Under the pieces are notes generated by a model that saw only the letters and a list, made by a program, of their open reading frames with translations, had not been told where the DNA came from and did no database searches. Both the position numbers and the translations under genes were made by a program. DNA of 64,000 nucleotides. Origin: Candidatus Iainarchaeum sp. (GTDB lineage Archaea > Iainarchaeota > Iainarchaeia > Iainarchaeales > UBA10219). The DNA lies in NCBI GenBank assembly GCA_018304425.1, contig JAGVWE010000006.1, positions 62,001-126,000 of the forward strand. Reading direction: 5' to 3'. This document shows, piece after piece, positions 42,297-51,223 of the stretch. Positions within the stretch are counted from its first letter, which is position 1; each line of letters starts with the position of its first letter.

Positions 42297-43580
42297 TCAC
42301 TGGCCGACGCCGTAATACTCGAAGCCCGCGGCCTCGACTTGCTTGCGCGAGTAAAGGTTGCGGCCGTCAACGATTACCCGGCCATTCATCAGGGCTTTTA
42401 CCTTCCGAAAATCGATTTCCTTGAACTCGTTCCACTCGGTCAACACCAACAGGGCGTCCGCCCCCTGCGCGCAGTCGTACACGGACTCGCAGTACGTGAT
42501 GCCAGTCAACACCTTCTTCGCGGCCTCCTCGGCCACGGGGTCCATGGCCGAAACCAGGGCGCCCTTTGCCTTCAGGGCCCGGATGACTTCCAAGGAAGGG
42601 GCCTCCCGCAGGTCATCGGTGTTGGGCTTGAACGCCAGGCCCAAAACCCCTATCCGCCTCCCTTTAAGGCTTCCCAGGGCCTTCTCTAGTTTCCGGACGG
42701 CCAAGGTTTTCTGCAGGCGGTTGACTTCCTCAACCCCCTTCAAAATCCGGAAGTCATAGCCGGCCTTTTCCGCGGTCTTGGCCAGGGCCTTCACGTCCTT
42801 GGGAAAACAACTGCCCCCATAGCCAACCCCCGCGTTCAAAAAAGCGGGCCCGATTCTCGCGTCCAGGCCCATGCCTTCCGCGACTTTTTTCACGTCCGCC
42901 CCGACCAGGTCACAGACGTTGGCAATCTCGTTGATGAAGGAAATCTTCGTCGCGAGGAAAGCGTTGCTGGCGTACTTGATGAGCTCGGCGGACTTGACGT
43001 CGGTGAAAATCATTTTTGCGCCGAGGGGCGCGTAGATTTCGCGCATGCGCTTCTCGGCCGCCACTGAACCGTTGCCGATGACGACCCGGTCCGGCTTCAT
43101 GAAGTCGTTGATGGCCGAGCCCTCGCGGAGGAACTCCGGGTTGGACACGACGTCGAACTCGCCCGCGTAAAACTTTGTCACGGTGTCCCTGACGAGGCTG
43201 CCGGTTCCAACCGGGACCGTGCTCTTGTTCACGATGACCTTGTAGCCGTTCATGTTTTTCCCGATTTCTTCGGCGACCTGGATGACGAACCGGAGGTCGG
43301 CGTCGCCGTCCACGGACTCCGGCGTTCCAACGGCGATGAAAACGACGTCCGACTTTTCCACGGCCCCTCCGAGGTCCAAGCTGAAGGAAAGCCTCCCGGC
43401 CTTCGCGTTTTTTTCCACCAGTTCCTGGAGGCCGGGCTCGTAGATGGGAATAACTCCCCGGCGAAGGGATTCGATTTTTTCCTTGACCGCGTCCACGCAA
43501 ACGACTTCGTGGCCCAACTCGCTGAGGCACGTGCCCAGGACCAGGCCGACATAGCCGCAACCCATGACCGCAATCCGCAT
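42297..43580 (-). CDS. ugd: UDP-glucose 6-dehydrogenase
   Basis: A 427-residue enzyme: RIAVMGCGYVGLVLGTCLSELGHEVVCVDAV, VFIAVGTPESVDGDADL, VNKSTVPVGTG and VVSNPEFLREGSAINDFMKPDRVVIG are the UDP-glucose dehydrogenase signatures. The catalytic cysteine is in GVGYGGSCFPKDVKALA, and LAFKPNTDDLREAPSLEVI ends the protein. It forms UDP-glucuronate with two NAD+. Start at ATG 43580; the open frame runs further upstream to 43925 but that part overlaps the divergent gene and has no dehydrogenase sequence. First gene of the seven-gene minus operon. Confidence 0.92.
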   Translation of the reverse strand: MRIAVMGCGYVGLVLGTCLSELGHEVVCVDAVKEKIESLRRGVIPIYEPGLQELVEKNAKAGRLSFSLDLGGAVEKSDVVFIAVGTPESVDGDADLRFVIQVAEEIGKNMNGYKVIVNKSTVPVGTGSLVRDTVTKFYAGEFDVVSNPEFLREGSAINDFMKPDRVVIGNGSVAAEKRMREIYAPLGAKMIFTDVKSAELIKYASNAFLATKISFINEIANVCDLVGADVKKVAEGMGLDARIGPAFLNAGVGYGGSCFPKDVKALAKTAEKAGYDFRILKGVEEVNRLQKTLAVRKLEKALGSLKGRRIGVLGLAFKPNTDDLREAPSLEVIRALKAKGALVSAMDPVAEEAAKKVLTGITYCESVYDCAQGADALLVLTEWNEFKEIDFRKVKALMNGRVIVDGRNLYSRKQVEAAGFEYYGVGQ

Positions 43581-43629
43581 GAAATGACACCCAATTAGCA
43601 AAGGTATAGCCATTTTGAGGCAAAATACC

Positions 43630-43667
43630 TTTAAATATGTGATGGATGCATATAGTGTATGAGCTAG
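43630..43667 (+). promoter_or_regulatory. TATA box and short repeats before the RHH-nucleotidyltransferase gene
   Basis: CTTTAAATATG (43630-43640) is a TATA-like box about 30 bases before the ATG at 43669. Downstream, CATA...TATG (43648-43660) and an imperfect direct repeat TAGTGTATGAGC / TAGTATGAGC (43655-43676) could bind the RHH domain of the product. Confidence 0.4.
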
Positions 43668-43668
43668 T

Positions 43669-44481
43669 ATGAGCAGGGAACGGGTTACGATTACCATCCG
43701 CAAGGACCTCCTGACCCAGGTGGACCGGCTAGTGGATGGGTCGACCATCCGGAGCCGGAGCCAGGCCATCGAGTCCCTGCTGAGCAAGCTGCTTTCCGAA
43801 TTCCGGATAGGGCGGGCGCTCATCCTCGCGGGCGGGAAGAGCAAGCACTTCGCACCCGAGGAATCGCGGTTCCTGATGGAGCTACAGGGCAAGCCCCTCA
43901 TCGAGCAGGTCATGAACGCCATCAACAGCTTTCACATCAGCAATTTCCTGGTGTATGTCGACGGGTTCAACCGCAAGGCCATCGACGTGCTGGGCGCGCG
44001 CCGGCTGCCCTATCACGTGGACTTCCTGACCGAAGGGGAATCGAAGGGGACCATCGCCCCACTGCTCAAGGCCAGGCCCCAATTGAAGGAAACCTTCCTG
44101 GTGTCCTATGGGGATACCATCTGCTCGCTGAACCTCCACGACATGCTGGCACTCCACAAACAGAACAAGGCGCTCGCGACCATCGCCCTGACAACCGTGA
44201 GCAACCCGAAGGACTATGGGGTCGTGATGCTGCAGGGCGGGAAGGTCAGCGAGTTCATCCAGAAACCGGAACAGGAAGCCAAGAGCTACCTCATCAACGC
44301 CGGCTACTTCCTCTTCGAGCCGCAGATTTTCGACTACCTCACCCCGAAGATGACCAGCCTGGAGAACGAGTTGTTCCCCTTGCTGGCGCAAAAGGGGCTG
44401 TTATACGGGTATCCCTTCCAGGGCAAGTACCTGAACGTGAACACCCCGGCCGAGCTGGAACGGGCGGAAATGCTGCTGTGA
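43669..44481 (+). CDS. Ribbon-helix-helix domain fused to a degenerate sugar nucleotidyltransferase
   Basis: A 270-residue chimera. Residues 4-42 (RVTITIRKDLLTQVDRLVDG, then SRSQAIESLLSKLL) form a CopG/Arc-type RHH DNA-binding unit. Residues 48-270 follow the sugar-1-phosphate nucleotidyltransferase fold (LILAGGK, GKPLIEQVMNAI, VSYGDT at 146-150, EFIQKPE, NAGYFLFEP). The catalytic signature is altered: the usual G-T-R-L-x-P reads KSKHFAP, and the P-K-x-L-x-x-V lysine is missing (ESRFLMEL). So sugar-nucleotide binding may survive but pyrophosphorylase activity is doubtful. I infer a transcription regulator sensing a nucleotide sugar. Divergent from ugd and its operon. Confidence 0.8.
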   Translation: MSRERVTITIRKDLLTQVDRLVDGSTIRSRSQAIESLLSKLLSEFRIGRALILAGGKSKHFAPEESRFLMELQGKPLIEQVMNAINSFHISNFLVYVDGFNRKAIDVLGARRLPYHVDFLTEGESKGTIAPLLKARPQLKETFLVSYGDTICSLNLHDMLALHKQNKALATIALTTVSNPKDYGVVMLQGGKVSEFIQKPEQEAKSYLINAGYFLFEPQIFDYLTPKMTSLENELFPLLAQKGLLYGYPFQGKYLNVNTPAELERAEMLL

Positions 44482-44514: not shown

Positions 44515-44536
44515 TTATAGTTCGTATACACTATAA
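44515..44536 (+). promoter_or_regulatory. Inverted-repeat operator of the DUF3368/UPF0175 pair
   Basis: TTATAG (44515-44520) and CTATAA (44531-44536) form an inverted repeat across 10 bases. The left arm overlaps a TATA-like GTATTTATAG, and the ATG is at 44545. Confidence 0.4.
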
Positions 44537-44544
44537 TATATTGT

Positions 44545-45081
44545 ATGACAAATAGGCTGGTGGTATCGGACAGCAGTTCGCTGATCCTTGCCACGAAGGC
44601 CGCGGTCCTGCAAACGCTGTGCATGTGCTTCGCAGTCCAAATCCCTGAAGCCGTATTCGAGGAAACCGTGGAAGCGGGCAAGCGCGCTGGAAAAGCGGAT
44701 GCGTTAAGGATCGAAGAAGCCGTCGAAACCGGAAGAATAAAGGTCGCAAAAGTTGCGGCGCTAAAGGACAAAAAAATCGAAAAATGGCTGAAAGAACTCT
44801 GCCTGGGTGAAGGTGAAGAACAGGCCCTCAAGCTCTGCCTGCAAGTGAAAGCCAATCTCTTTCTGGTCGATGACCGCCAAGCTATCAACGCGGCGAAACT
44901 GCTGGAAATAAATTGGTCGACGTTGCCGGGCTTGATCGTGGGCCTCGCCGAAAAAAACAGGCTGGCGCCAGAGAAGGCATTGGATGCCCTCCGCGTCCTC
45001 CAGGAAGAAGGAAGATATAAGCTGGATTTCATCCTCGACGCATTCAAAAAAATCGAAGCATTGAAGGAGGCGAAAAAATGA
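44545..45081 (+). CDS. DUF3368-like PIN-domain protein (toxin)
   Basis: A 178-residue protein: VVSDSSSLILATKAAVLQTL with the first catalytic aspartate, IPEAVFEETVEAG with an acidic residue, LGEGEEQALKLCLQ and LFLVDDRQAINAAKLLEI. This is the order in DUF3368, a predicted PIN-type nuclease usually encoded with a UPF0175 antitoxin, as here (4-base overlap with the next gene). The C-terminal 40 residues (PEKALDALRVLQEEGRYKLDFILDAFKKIE) are a helical cap. Toxic RNA cleavage is inferred from the family; the toxin is encoded first, the reverse of the usual order. Confidence 0.72.
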   Translation: MTNRLVVSDSSSLILATKAAVLQTLCMCFAVQIPEAVFEETVEAGKRAGKADALRIEEAVETGRIKVAKVAALKDKKIEKWLKELCLGEGEEQALKLCLQVKANLFLVDDRQAINAAKLLEINWSTLPGLIVGLAEKNRLAPEKALDALRVLQEEGRYKLDFILDAFKKIEALKEAKK

Positions 45082-45392
45082 AGACCCAACTGGTTTCGGT
45101 AAGGCTCCCTGAAGAGGACCTCAAGATAATCGAACAAAAGACCAAGGAAGAAAAAATGGCTAAAACCACGGCTTTGAAGCAGATGCTGGCTCTTGGCATC
45201 AAGCAATACCAACTCGCAAGAGCCGTCGAAAGATACGGGCGGGGAAAGACCAGCCTCGGCAAGGCCGCCGAAGAAGCCGGTCTCACAGTATGGGAAATGA
45301 TGGACTGCCTCAAGGAAAAAGGCGTGCCCAACCCCCTCACCGCCGAAGACTTTCGACAAAGCCGCAAAAACCTCGAAAAGGCGTTGCAGTAA
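45078..45392 (+). CDS. UPF0175-family antitoxin with RHH-like start
   Basis: A 104-residue protein: TQLVSVRLPEEDLKIIEQKTKEEKMAKTTALKQMLALGIKQYQLARAVERYGRGKTSLGKAAEEAGLTVWEMMDCLKEKG. The first half is ribbon-helix-helix like. The YGRGKTSLGKAAEEAGLTVWEMMD part is the UPF0175 signature, a small HTH-like unit. It overlaps the DUF3368 gene and should neutralise it. The second half is closely similar to the 63-residue protein at 45585. Confidence 0.78.
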   Translation: MKTQLVSVRLPEEDLKIIEQKTKEEKMAKTTALKQMLALGIKQYQLARAVERYGRGKTSLGKAAEEAGLTVWEMMDCLKEKGVPNPLTAEDFRQSRKNLEKALQ

Positions 45393-45584
45393 CCGATTGA
45401 ATGGAACCCCGCCTACCGCGCAAAATGACTATTCATTTTTATCTGGCTTCCACTAACATTAAAGAAATAGCTAATAAACACATTATAAGGCATTAAAATA
45501 ATTAAACACGCAGCCTAAATCCGTCCAATTGCCTTAAGAGGCAATTTTAATAGGTTACTGGCCATAAACTTCTGGAGGCGACAG
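45393..45584. other. AT-rich intergenic region with an operator-like hairpin
   Basis: 192 bases, much AT-richer than the surroundings, with no gene. AATTGCCT (45527-45534), TAAG, AGGCAATT (45539-45546) is a perfect inverted repeat that runs into a TATA-like TTTTAATAG (45545-45553), about 35 bases before the ATG at 45585. The upstream part has only AT-rich runs. Confidence 0.5.
45527..45553 (+). promoter_or_regulatory. Promoter and inverted repeat upstream of the UPF0175-like/nucleotidyltransferase operon
   Basis: The inverted repeat with 8-base arms (45527-45546) abuts TTTTAATAG (45545-45553), a TATA-like box in the right place for the 45585 gene. A repressor bound here would cover the BRE/TATA position, so the small DNA-binding protein encoded first may control the sugar genes behind it. 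Confidence 0.55.
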
Positions 45585-45776
45585 ATGATGAAATCCGTGG
45601 AGAAATCGTTCCTTGCAGATGCGCTGAAAGCGTACGAAAACGGCCAGCTTACGCTCTGGCGAGCCGCAAAAAAGGCCGGCCTGTCCTTGTGGGAGATGAT
45701 GGACGAATGCCAGCGCAAACAGGCTCAGGTGCCTTATTCGGTCAAAGACTTCGCAGAAGACATGGGGAAAGCATGA
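45585..45776 (+). CDS. UPF0175-like small DNA-binding protein, solo
   Basis: A 63-residue protein: KSVEKSFLADALKAYENGQLTLWRAAKKAGLSLWEMMDECQRKQ and a short acidic tail. It is similar to the UPF0175 half of the 45078 antitoxin (YGRGKTSLGKAAEEAGLTVWEMMD), but lacks the RHH start and has no toxin gene. Instead its TGA overlaps by four bases the ATG of a sugar nucleotidyltransferase. ATG 45585 is followed by a second ATG at 45588, and GGAGG lies upstream (TGGAGGCGAC, 45573-45582). It may be a transcription regulator of the glycan operon. Confidence 0.7.
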   Translation: MMKSVEKSFLADALKAYENGQLTLWRAAKKAGLSLWEMMDECQRKQAQVPYSVKDFAEDMGKA

Positions 45777-46480
45777 TTCACAAGGCATTCATCCTCGCCG
45801 GCGGCAAGGGGGAACGGTTGAGGCCCCTGACGGATGAAACGCCCAAGCCCATGCTGGAGGTCTCCGGCAAGCCCATCCTCCAGCATGCCATCGACTGGCT
45901 GGAATACCATGGCGTGCAGGAAATCGTGTTAGGCGTGGGCTACCAGCACGAAAAAATCATGCACTACTTTGGCAACGGCCGGCCGTCGGGCGCGAGGATA
46001 ACCTACAGCGTGGAAGGAAAACCCCTGGGCACCGGGGGCGCGGTCAAGGCCGCCCAGGAAATGCTGGGCAAAGAGCCATTCATCATGCTGAACGGCGACA
46101 ACCTGATGGACGTCGATTACCGGAAAATGGCGGCAGTCCACGAAAAAAACAAGGCGCTGGCCACGATTGCCCTGGTGGAAGTCAAGGACGTGACCGGTTA
46201 CGGCGTGGCCCGGCTCCAGGGAGAAAAAATAACAGAGTTCGTGGAAAAACCCGCGCCTGGCCTGGAGCCCAGCAAGCGCATCAATGCCGGCTGCTATGTC
46301 CTGGAACCCAAAGCCCTGGACTTCATCCCCGACGGCTTTTCCCTGATTGAAAAAACCGCTTTTCCCGCGCTCGCCAAGAAAGGCCGGCTCTACGCGTTTT
46401 CCCATGTTGGACAATGGTTTCCCACCGACGACCCCCCGAAATGGGAGGCCGCGAAAAAGGCCTGGAAGCCACCGGTGTAA
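45773..46480 (+). CDS. Sugar-1-phosphate nucleotidyltransferase
   Basis: A 235-residue enzyme with an intact catalytic signature, FILAGGKGERLRPLTDETPKPMLEVSGKPILQHAIDWL. FIMLNGDNLMDVD holds the metal site, and GYGVARLQGEKITEFVEKPAPGLEPSKRINAGCYVLEP the substrate loops. It resembles mannose-1-phosphate guanylyltransferases and heptose/HexNAc pyrophosphorylases, so GDP-, UDP- and dTDP-linked products are all possible. ATG 45773 overlaps the small DNA-binding gene, so translation is coupled. An upstream reading extension is a shadow of that gene. The end (FPTDDPPKWEAAKKAW) is usual for the family. Confidence 0.85.
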   Translation: MIHKAFILAGGKGERLRPLTDETPKPMLEVSGKPILQHAIDWLEYHGVQEIVLGVGYQHEKIMHYFGNGRPSGARITYSVEGKPLGTGGAVKAAQEMLGKEPFIMLNGDNLMDVDYRKMAAVHEKNKALATIALVEVKDVTGYGVARLQGEKITEFVEKPAPGLEPSKRINAGCYVLEPKALDFIPDGFSLIEKTAFPALAKKGRLYAFSHVGQWFPTDDPPKWEAAKKAWKPPV

Positions 46481-50429: not shown

Positions 50430-50705
50430 ATGAAGCAGTACGTCACGAATGTGGAGCCAGCCCTCATCAAGGAAGTCGACAAAATCGTCAAGAAGAAACA
50501 GCATTACAGTTCCCGCAACGAGTTCATCCGGGACGCCATCCGAAGCAAGGTGAAAGAACCACGGGCCATGAAACTCCGGGAAGCGCTGAGAAAAATCAGA
50601 GAAACTGCATTGAAGCGGGGTTGGAATGGAGAGATGCCAACCAAAGCGGAACGCGAAAAAATCCTGCAAGAATTTCTGAAAGAAAAAGGTCTTTCACTCG
50701 ATTAA
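50430..50705 (+). CDS. RHH (CopG-like) antitoxin or regulator
   Basis: A 91-residue protein: KQYVTNVEPALIKEVDKIVKKKQHYSSRNEFIRDAIRSKVKE is a textbook ribbon-helix-helix unit with S-R-N-E-F-I-R-D-A. A long charged helix follows, of the sort that binds a toxin (EALRKIRETALKRGWNGEMPTKAEREKILQEFLKEKG). A palindromic promoter precedes it. The nearest PIN-domain gene is on the opposite strand, overlapping its last 12 bases tail to tail, an unusual layout for a pair. Confidence 0.78.
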   Translation: MKQYVTNVEPALIKEVDKIVKKKQHYSSRNEFIRDAIRSKVKEPRAMKLREALRKIRETALKRGWNGEMPTKAEREKILQEFLKEKGLSLD

Positions 50706-51131
50706 GTCCCTGGGTGCTACGACGCGAATCAAACCCGCAGCAAGCACAAAATCTTTTTTGTTGAAAGTCATCAAGGCATCGCAATGGGCTTCGATGGCAA
50801 TCGCTGCATGGAGGGCATCCATGGAAGGAACGCCTTTTCCGCGAAATTCCTCGGCCAAAGAAGTGCACCGCCCAGTAGACTCGGTAACTTCGACAGATAT
50901 TTCTCGCTCTCGGAAGAAATCGAGCACTTCTTGTGCGGAGTGGTATGCAATCCGCTTGATTTCCCGAAACACGTAATCAGACAACACTACGGTAAACCGT
51001 TCCGGGCACGCGTCAAAGAAATCCTCGACGTCTTGGTACATCAACTTGAATGGCTTGCCCATGTCGGCCTTAACGAAGGCGATGAAAATGTTGGCATCCA
51101 GGTAGACACGCTGTTTAGGGGCTGGCGACAT
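50694..51131 (-). CDS. VapC-like PIN-domain toxin on the opposite strand
   Basis: A 145-residue PIN domain. Acidic residues: D12 (VYLDANIFIAFV), E57 (YVFREIKRIA), D105 (VPSMDALHAAIA) and D127 (FNKKDFVL). Family members are RNases, active as toxins. It is encoded tail to tail with the RHH gene, overlapping its end by 12 bases, and no antitoxin lies upstream on its own strand, so either the RHH protein acts as antitoxin in trans or this is a solo PIN. ATG 51131 chosen (MSPAPKQRVYLD); an upstream in-frame start at 51188 is possible. Confidence 0.75.
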   Translation of the reverse strand: MSPAPKQRVYLDANIFIAFVKADMGKPFKLMYQDVEDFFDACPERFTVVLSDYVFREIKRIAYHSAQEVLDFFREREISVEVTESTGRCTSLAEEFRGKGVPSMDALHAAIAIEAHCDALMTFNKKDFVLAAGLIRVVAPRDLIE

Positions 51132-51223
51132 GCACGACCCTCCGAAGGGTTTCGGCAACGGGTGCGGTGCCAGCCATAATAGCCACACGCCAACCAGTTT
51201 TTAGGCTTTTCGACGATTGCCGA

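Follow-up and report, generated by a model that had tools for sequence, protein, structure and literature searches.

A ribbon-helix-helix domain fused to a sugar nucleotidyltransferase with a degenerate active site: a probable nucleotide-sugar-sensing repressor in an archaeal genome

What does a protein do that joins a DNA-binding domain to an enzyme fold lacking its catalytic residues? This question is raised by a gene within the window analysed here (a 64,000-nucleotide stretch of a 1.48-Mb archaeal genome), for which the first-pass annotation had proposed a transcription factor with a dead nucleotidyltransferase domain, situated beside the operon that it could control. The answer favored here is that its product is probably a pseudoenzyme-based repressor that senses a nucleotide sugar and that acts on its own gene and probably on the divergent operon. 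The architecture, lesions, retained residues, fold, operator, conserved synteny and purifying selection have been shown computationally; DNA binding, the identity of the ligand, the sign of the response and control of ugd are inferred. The gene and its parts (in window coordinates) are:

43669..44481, + strand: RHH-pseudo-nucleotidyltransferase gene, 270 aa (ORF and translation; 17 full-length same-order orthologues)
43678..43794, + strand: ribbon-helix-helix (RHH) DNA-binding domain, residues 4-42, with strand RVTITIR (Pfam RHH_1)
43810..44478, + strand: sugar-nucleotidyltransferase (NT) fold, residues 48-270 (Pfam NTP_transferase; AlphaFold2 model)
43837..43872, + strand: degenerate catalytic loop, residues 57-68, KSKHFAPEESRF replacing xGTRLxPxTxxxPKP (family alignment)
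44113..44115, + strand: D149, first metal ligand, retained (90/90 aligned proteins)
44263..44265, + strand: K199 of the E/QKP motif, sugar-phosphate contact, retained (90/90 aligned proteins)
44428..44442, + strand: YLNVN, residues 254-258, in place of WxDxG, the second metal Asp having become Asn (family alignment)

Pfam NTP_transferase matches residues 50-228 of the fusion with an E-value of 1.6e-21, and RHH_1 matches residues 5-42 with an E-value of 0.001 (19.4 bits, which is 1.1 bits below the 20.5-bit cut-off); among 18 orthologues, RHH_1 is matched at E ≤ 0.01 in 11, the best E-value being 2.1e-5. Seventeen full-length orthologues from the same order (43-60% identity) all carry the RHH part and share both the fusion and its lesions; hence, judged from the sequences, the pattern is far beyond chance. 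These matches and orthologues bear out the earlier reading of the open reading frame as an RHH unit (residues 4-42) joined to an NT fold (48-270). A frameshift or assembly artefact was ruled out, inasmuch as the fusion is found again in tens of independent genomes; also ruled out was an RHH unit belonging to a toxin-antitoxin system, given that the partner is part of the same protein and the surroundings do not vary. Because the same genome contains seven further loci with NTP_transferase domains, the RHH-NT copy is not required for catalysis.

Following LAGG, the loop of the fusion reads KSKHFAPEESRFLMEL rather than GTRL...PK; when aligned to GMPPB, H60 occupies the position of the catalytic Arg and R67 that of the Lys. 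Both the Arg and the loop (GxGTRLxPxTxxxPK in PF00483 enzymes) are missing from all orthologues and, in one alignment, the Arg occurs in 21/21 RHH-free NTs and 7/9 RHH fusions grouped as intact, but not in any of the ~60 fusions of the dead group. The first-pass annotation, which regarded the arginine and the lysine alike as lost, was right about the former and about the loop; its statement regarding the lysine needs correcting, since that position is K in 15/17 and R in 2/17 Diapherotrites sequences and R in 3/3 Aenigmatarchaeota sequences (i.e., K or R in 20/20 rows). It also missed a lesion, namely the replacement by Asn of the second metal Asp (WxDxG): N256 and N258 occur in 20/20 rows (17 Diapherotrites and 3 Aenigmatarchaeota), and thus the two-Asp metal site of PF00483 enzymes is incomplete, although D149 is present. 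In the more distant Woesearchaeota set the corresponding change is to His (40/40).

Other parts of the pocket survive, as had been noted from the sequence: the GDT (D149), QKP (K199) and NAGYFLFEP motifs are present in the fusion, and D149, K199 and the NAG Gly (G212) are conserved in 90/90 aligned rows. Among orthologues D149, K199, G127 and G212 are invariant, and most of these are also conserved in the distant clade. The roles of these residues (metal Asp, EKP Lys, NAG Gly) are carried over from RmlA-type enzymes. On that basis it is inferred that the lesions remove the NTP chemistry and leave the portion of the pocket in which the sugar and diphosphate are held; both the loss of catalysis and the retention of binding are inferences. 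Thus the fusion resembles RmlA, GalU and HddC (PF00483) in its fold, first metal Asp and EKP and NAG motifs, but differs from them in lacking the catalytic loop and second metal ligand and in having an added RHH domain.

Might the protein nevertheless still be an enzyme? PutA is a metabolic enzyme with an N-terminal RHH domain and represses its own gene (PMC5293562); like PutA, the fusion has an RHH domain at the N-terminus of a metabolic-enzyme fold. A PutA-like trigger enzyme, combining some unusual residual catalysis with autorepression, could account for the retention of R67/K and D149, for related fusions (L056, L059 and L065) that retain GTRLRP..PK and WxDxG, and for an operator (described below) that also precedes some intact-loop fusions; it is nonetheless distinctly unlikely, for every orthologue has lost the catalytic Arg and the second metal Asp along with most of the loop, and the Asn substitution is fixed rather than tolerant. 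PutA is an active flavoenzyme of unrelated fold, whereas the NT domain here is dead: the defining combination of an active enzyme with an RHH autorepressor is lacking, inasmuch as active-site residues are lost (catalytic inactivity itself being inferred).

An AlphaFold2 model of the fusion (18 alignment rows; mean pLDDT 83.7) places the NT domain closest in fold (VIA) to chain E of 7d72, the human GMPPA/GMPPB complex with GDP-mannose (Z 28.3; 1.9 Å over 222 residues). A Woesearchaeota member in which the loop is wholly absent is predicted to retain the same NT fold (Z 27.3 to 7x8k, a product-bound plant enzyme). Within the monomer model RHH helices are formed at residues 12-21 and 30-44, but the strand is unformed (pLDDT 54-70); such low confidence is expected of a dimeric fold, yet the model is no proof of an RHH fold. 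No RHH proteins are among the matches listed for the fold search with the fusion model, because the NT domain fills those matches and the strand is unformed. A PDB sequence search with the RHH part found no match at E ≤ 0.1; the best PDB match to an RHH-only profile is E. coli NikR (E 0.19), a weak one.

The surroundings of the gene point to the pathway that might be sensed:

42297..43580, - strand: ugd (UDP-glucose 6-dehydrogenase), heading the divergent UDP-sugar operon, which extends to ~37514 (NCBIfam; synteny)
43581..43668, no strand: intergenic region separating the divergent ugd and fusion genes (locus comparison)
43630..43637, + strand: TATA box TTTAAATA, 18 bp ahead of the operator start (offset comparison)
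43648..43672, + strand: probable operator GCATAT-AGT-GTATGA-GCTA-GTATGA, the third half-site of which overlaps the start codon (motif comparison; genome-wide search)
45773..46480, + strand: intact sugar NT paralogue without an RHH domain (GERLRPLT...PKPM; WFPTD) (Pfam; family alignment)

The ugd product matches NCBIfam NDP-sugDHase at 474 bits, above the cut-off, and the operon that it heads also encodes a nucleotidyltransferase and sugar-nucleotide SDR enzymes. The placement proposed earlier, divergent from this operon, recurs at all 17 Diapherotrites loci for which upstream DNA is available (the window and 16 orthologous loci), as well as at L076 and L078 in Aenigmatarchaeota and at L160 and L162. 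The genes of the Woesearchaeota set instead mostly face ADP-heptose genes (encoding GmhA, the HldE kinase domain, GmhB and an epimerase), being divergent from them in 34 of the 38 cases for which upstream DNA is available. Thus the neighboring pathway varies with the clade, but is nearly always one of nucleotide-sugar synthesis. Within L086-L126 (Woesearchaeota and Nanoarchaeota; e.g., L106:85-2893 and L112:1-2870), no intact sugar NT was found alongside the ADP-heptose genes, and HddA with an HddC-like enzyme occurs only in L101.

This neighborhood bears upon another possibility: that the protein is a GMPPA-like regulatory subunit, its dead NT domain allosterically inhibiting a nearby intact NT upon binding a nucleotide sugar, with the RHH domain serving merely for autoregulation. 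GMPPA is a non-catalytic protein of NT fold that senses a nucleotide sugar, binding GDP-mannose and inhibiting GMPPB (PMC11228364), and the GMPPA/GMPPB complex is the top structural match; furthermore, an intact NT lies downstream of the fusion in most Diapherotrites loci, and it is the fusion gene that the operator serves. This possibility is considered unlikely, however: apart from L101, and L125 where it is slightly further off, the Woesearchaeota set has no intact NT adjoining the fusion, and constant divergence from a biosynthesis operon suits a regulator of that operon. GMPPA acts in eukaryotes by inhibiting an enzyme allosterically and has no DNA-binding domain, whereas the fusion possesses an RHH domain. 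An RHH domain was looked for on the neighboring NT at 45773 and was absent; in four related genomes the equivalent copy does have one.

The predicted operator TCATAnnnnnTATGAnnnnnTATGA, for which there are no binding data, is common to the intergenic regions of 17/17 loci at two or fewer mismatches, and in 16/17 it starts 17-18 bp after the TATA box. Within archaeal promoters a position 17-18 bp past the TATA box lies over the transcription start, where a repressor acts; this fixed offset therefore puts the operator at a repressor position. The RHH-superfamily trait of short half-sites repeated within the regulated promoter is thereby found at 17/17 loci. At one or fewer mismatches, TCATAnnnnnTATGAnnnnnTATGA occurs 18 times in 19 genomes (~20 Mb), every time before an RHH-NT gene (15 dead fusions and 3 intact-site RHH fusions), as compared with two sites for a control pattern in the same search. 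No wider regulon was detected by this one-mismatch pattern search of 19 genomes, which does not exclude weaker or two-half-site targets. In the Woesearchaeota set TCATAC/GTATGA lies within 90 bp upstream of 35 of 41 genes, versus 1.5 for shuffles and 2.2 for random stretches. In about six loci the third half-site lies over the start codon, which accounts for part of its ATG and so weighs against the repressor reading; the overlap implies a nearly leaderless transcript and is seen at 43667-43672 of the window and at L039, L041, L046, L048 and L050. In three of these (L046, L048 and L050) the dead fusion is followed downstream by another RHH fusion, whose loop is intact and which has the same operator motif upstream, and in L057 an intact-loop fusion, the only RHH fusion seen there, is likewise preceded by the motif; such sharing of an operator by intact and dead fusions suggests cross-regulation and bifunctional trigger enzymes.

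The half-site was identified from the DNA prior to comparison with E. coli NikR, whose operator is GTATGA-N16-TCATAC (PMC7055735). Like NikR, the fusion has an N-terminal RHH domain with a nearly identical DNA-contact strand (RVTITI versus RVTITL, within QRVTITL in NikR), a separate C-terminal ligand domain and GTATGA/TCATAC half-sites (PMC7055735). It differs in that its half-sites are tandem at 9-10 bp rather than N16 apart, and in that the small metal-binding sensor of NikR is absent, the C-terminal domain being an NT fold instead of a nickel-binding domain. At E 0.19 the resemblance is statistically weak, and recognition of GTATGA by the strand of the fusion would be an inference by analogy. 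By analogy, then, there is a precedent for each part--NikR for an RHH sensor, PutA for an RHH domain on an enzyme, GMPPA for a dead NT sensor--and no description of an RHH-dead NT regulator was found in the literature, a search limited to open-access sources, whose silence is not proof.

The repressor mechanism proposed is as follows. RHH dimers would bind tandem GTATGA/TCATAC half-sites between the TATA box and the fusion start codon, beside the ugd promoter; the C-terminal NT domain, though without catalysis, should remain able to bind a nucleotide sugar or sugar phosphate; and occupancy of this pocket would alter DNA binding, so that transcription of the fusion gene, and most likely also of the divergent ugd/UDP-sugar operon, would be matched to the nucleotide-sugar pool. 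End-product feedback, with a UDP-sugar (e.g., UDP-glucuronate or UDP-xylose) as co-repressor, is favored over induction by a precursor. Because the gene has its own conserved operator and lies opposite sugar genes, the fusion most likely senses activated sugars and switches their synthesis. Of these steps, autorepression via the GTATGA sites has the strongest support, followed by nucleotide-sugar sensing; control of ugd is the least secure, since the operator is situated towards the fusion gene and since ugd and the fusion are far apart (247 and 317 bp) in two loci, where ugd's own promoter may be out of the operator's reach. The initial proposal, a transcription factor whose NT domain is dead, is accordingly supported, by comparative evidence alone, through the unvarying divergence from ugd, the conserved operator, the catalytic loss with pocket retention, and selection (dN/dS of ~0.05-0.1).

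NTs of this fold often form dimers or tetramers. Conceivably, therefore, the NT remnant serves solely for oligomerization of a constitutive, ligand-independent RHH repressor, as the dimers that RHH proteins require and the three-half-site operator would allow. This is very improbable, however, given that D149, K199, G127 and G212 remain invariant among orthologues (and mostly so in the distant clade), and that the neighbors change by clade yet almost always belong to a nucleotide-sugar pathway. The dN/dS ratio for the fusion was counted where dS is unsaturated; for close pairs dN is 0.07-0.12 versus a dS of 1.0-1.8, from which it follows that the dead NT domain is held by purifying selection.

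How did such a regulator arise? When one genome per species was scanned, all RHH-NT fusions found belonged to DPANN lineages: Aenigmatarchaeota members at 45-48% identity and about 40 more distant ones, mostly from Woesearchaeota (28-36%), which are also dead; more distant fusions occur in two larger genomes, G119 and G148. In a tree built without the trait columns, the root of which is not fixed, the fusions of Diapherotrites and Aenigmatarchaeota cluster together (support 100/99) and those of the Woesearchaeota set form a second cluster (100/99); a 95/87 branch separates both dead groups, together with L062 and L063, from the intact enzymes. Fusion homologues retaining the full signature, which together with activity of the enzyme the first-pass annotation would have taken as refutation, do exist (L056, L059 and L065), so that this condition is touched in part, but they occupy another part of the tree and all orthologues are dead. 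The RHH motif VDGxxIRxRSxAxE is common to intact and dead fusions, which makes a single ancient fusion of an RHH domain to an active enzyme likely, insofar as sequences can indicate this without a fixed root. L060 is dead independently in the tree, which puts the number of losses of the catalytic loop at two or more. L156, L165 and L060 are RHH-NT fusions with differently eroded loops, suggesting repeated independent catalytic loss; the first two, being outside the tree, look like additional cases.

A broader conjecture, the case for and against which is evenly balanced, is that these proteins constitute a DPANN family of nucleotide-sugar-sensing transcription factors derived from an autorepressing RHH-NT trigger enzyme, in which catalysis was lost, probably more than once, and in which each lineage guards a different pathway (UDP-glucuronate in Diapherotrites and Aenigmatarchaeota, ADP-heptose in Woesearchaeota) via a GTATGA-type operator. 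Very few DPANN regulators come with a prediction of signal, target and binding site; for the RHH-NT fusion all three can be named. It offers a handle on the control of surface-sugar synthesis in minimal DPANN cells and an instance of the transition from enzyme to transcription factor in which intact, partly eroded and dead relatives coexist; many DPANN 'sugar nucleotidyltransferase' annotations probably denote regulators instead.

Several small genes nearby also merit mention. Between the fusion and the intact NT is an overlapping pair, 44545-45081 (+) and 45078-45392 (+), encoding a PIN-like protein followed by RHH_1 plus UPF0175, which is probably toxin-antitoxin-like; immediately before it, at 44524-44548, is an AT-rich imperfect palindrome, GTATACACTATAATATATTGTATGA. 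A second small UPF0175-like ORF (AYENGQLTLWRAAKKAGLSLWEMMDE), at ~45530-45785 (+), overlaps the start of the intact NT at 45773. Further along, a small RHH gene at 50430-50705 (+) overlaps, tail to tail, a PIN-like gene at 50694-51188 (-).
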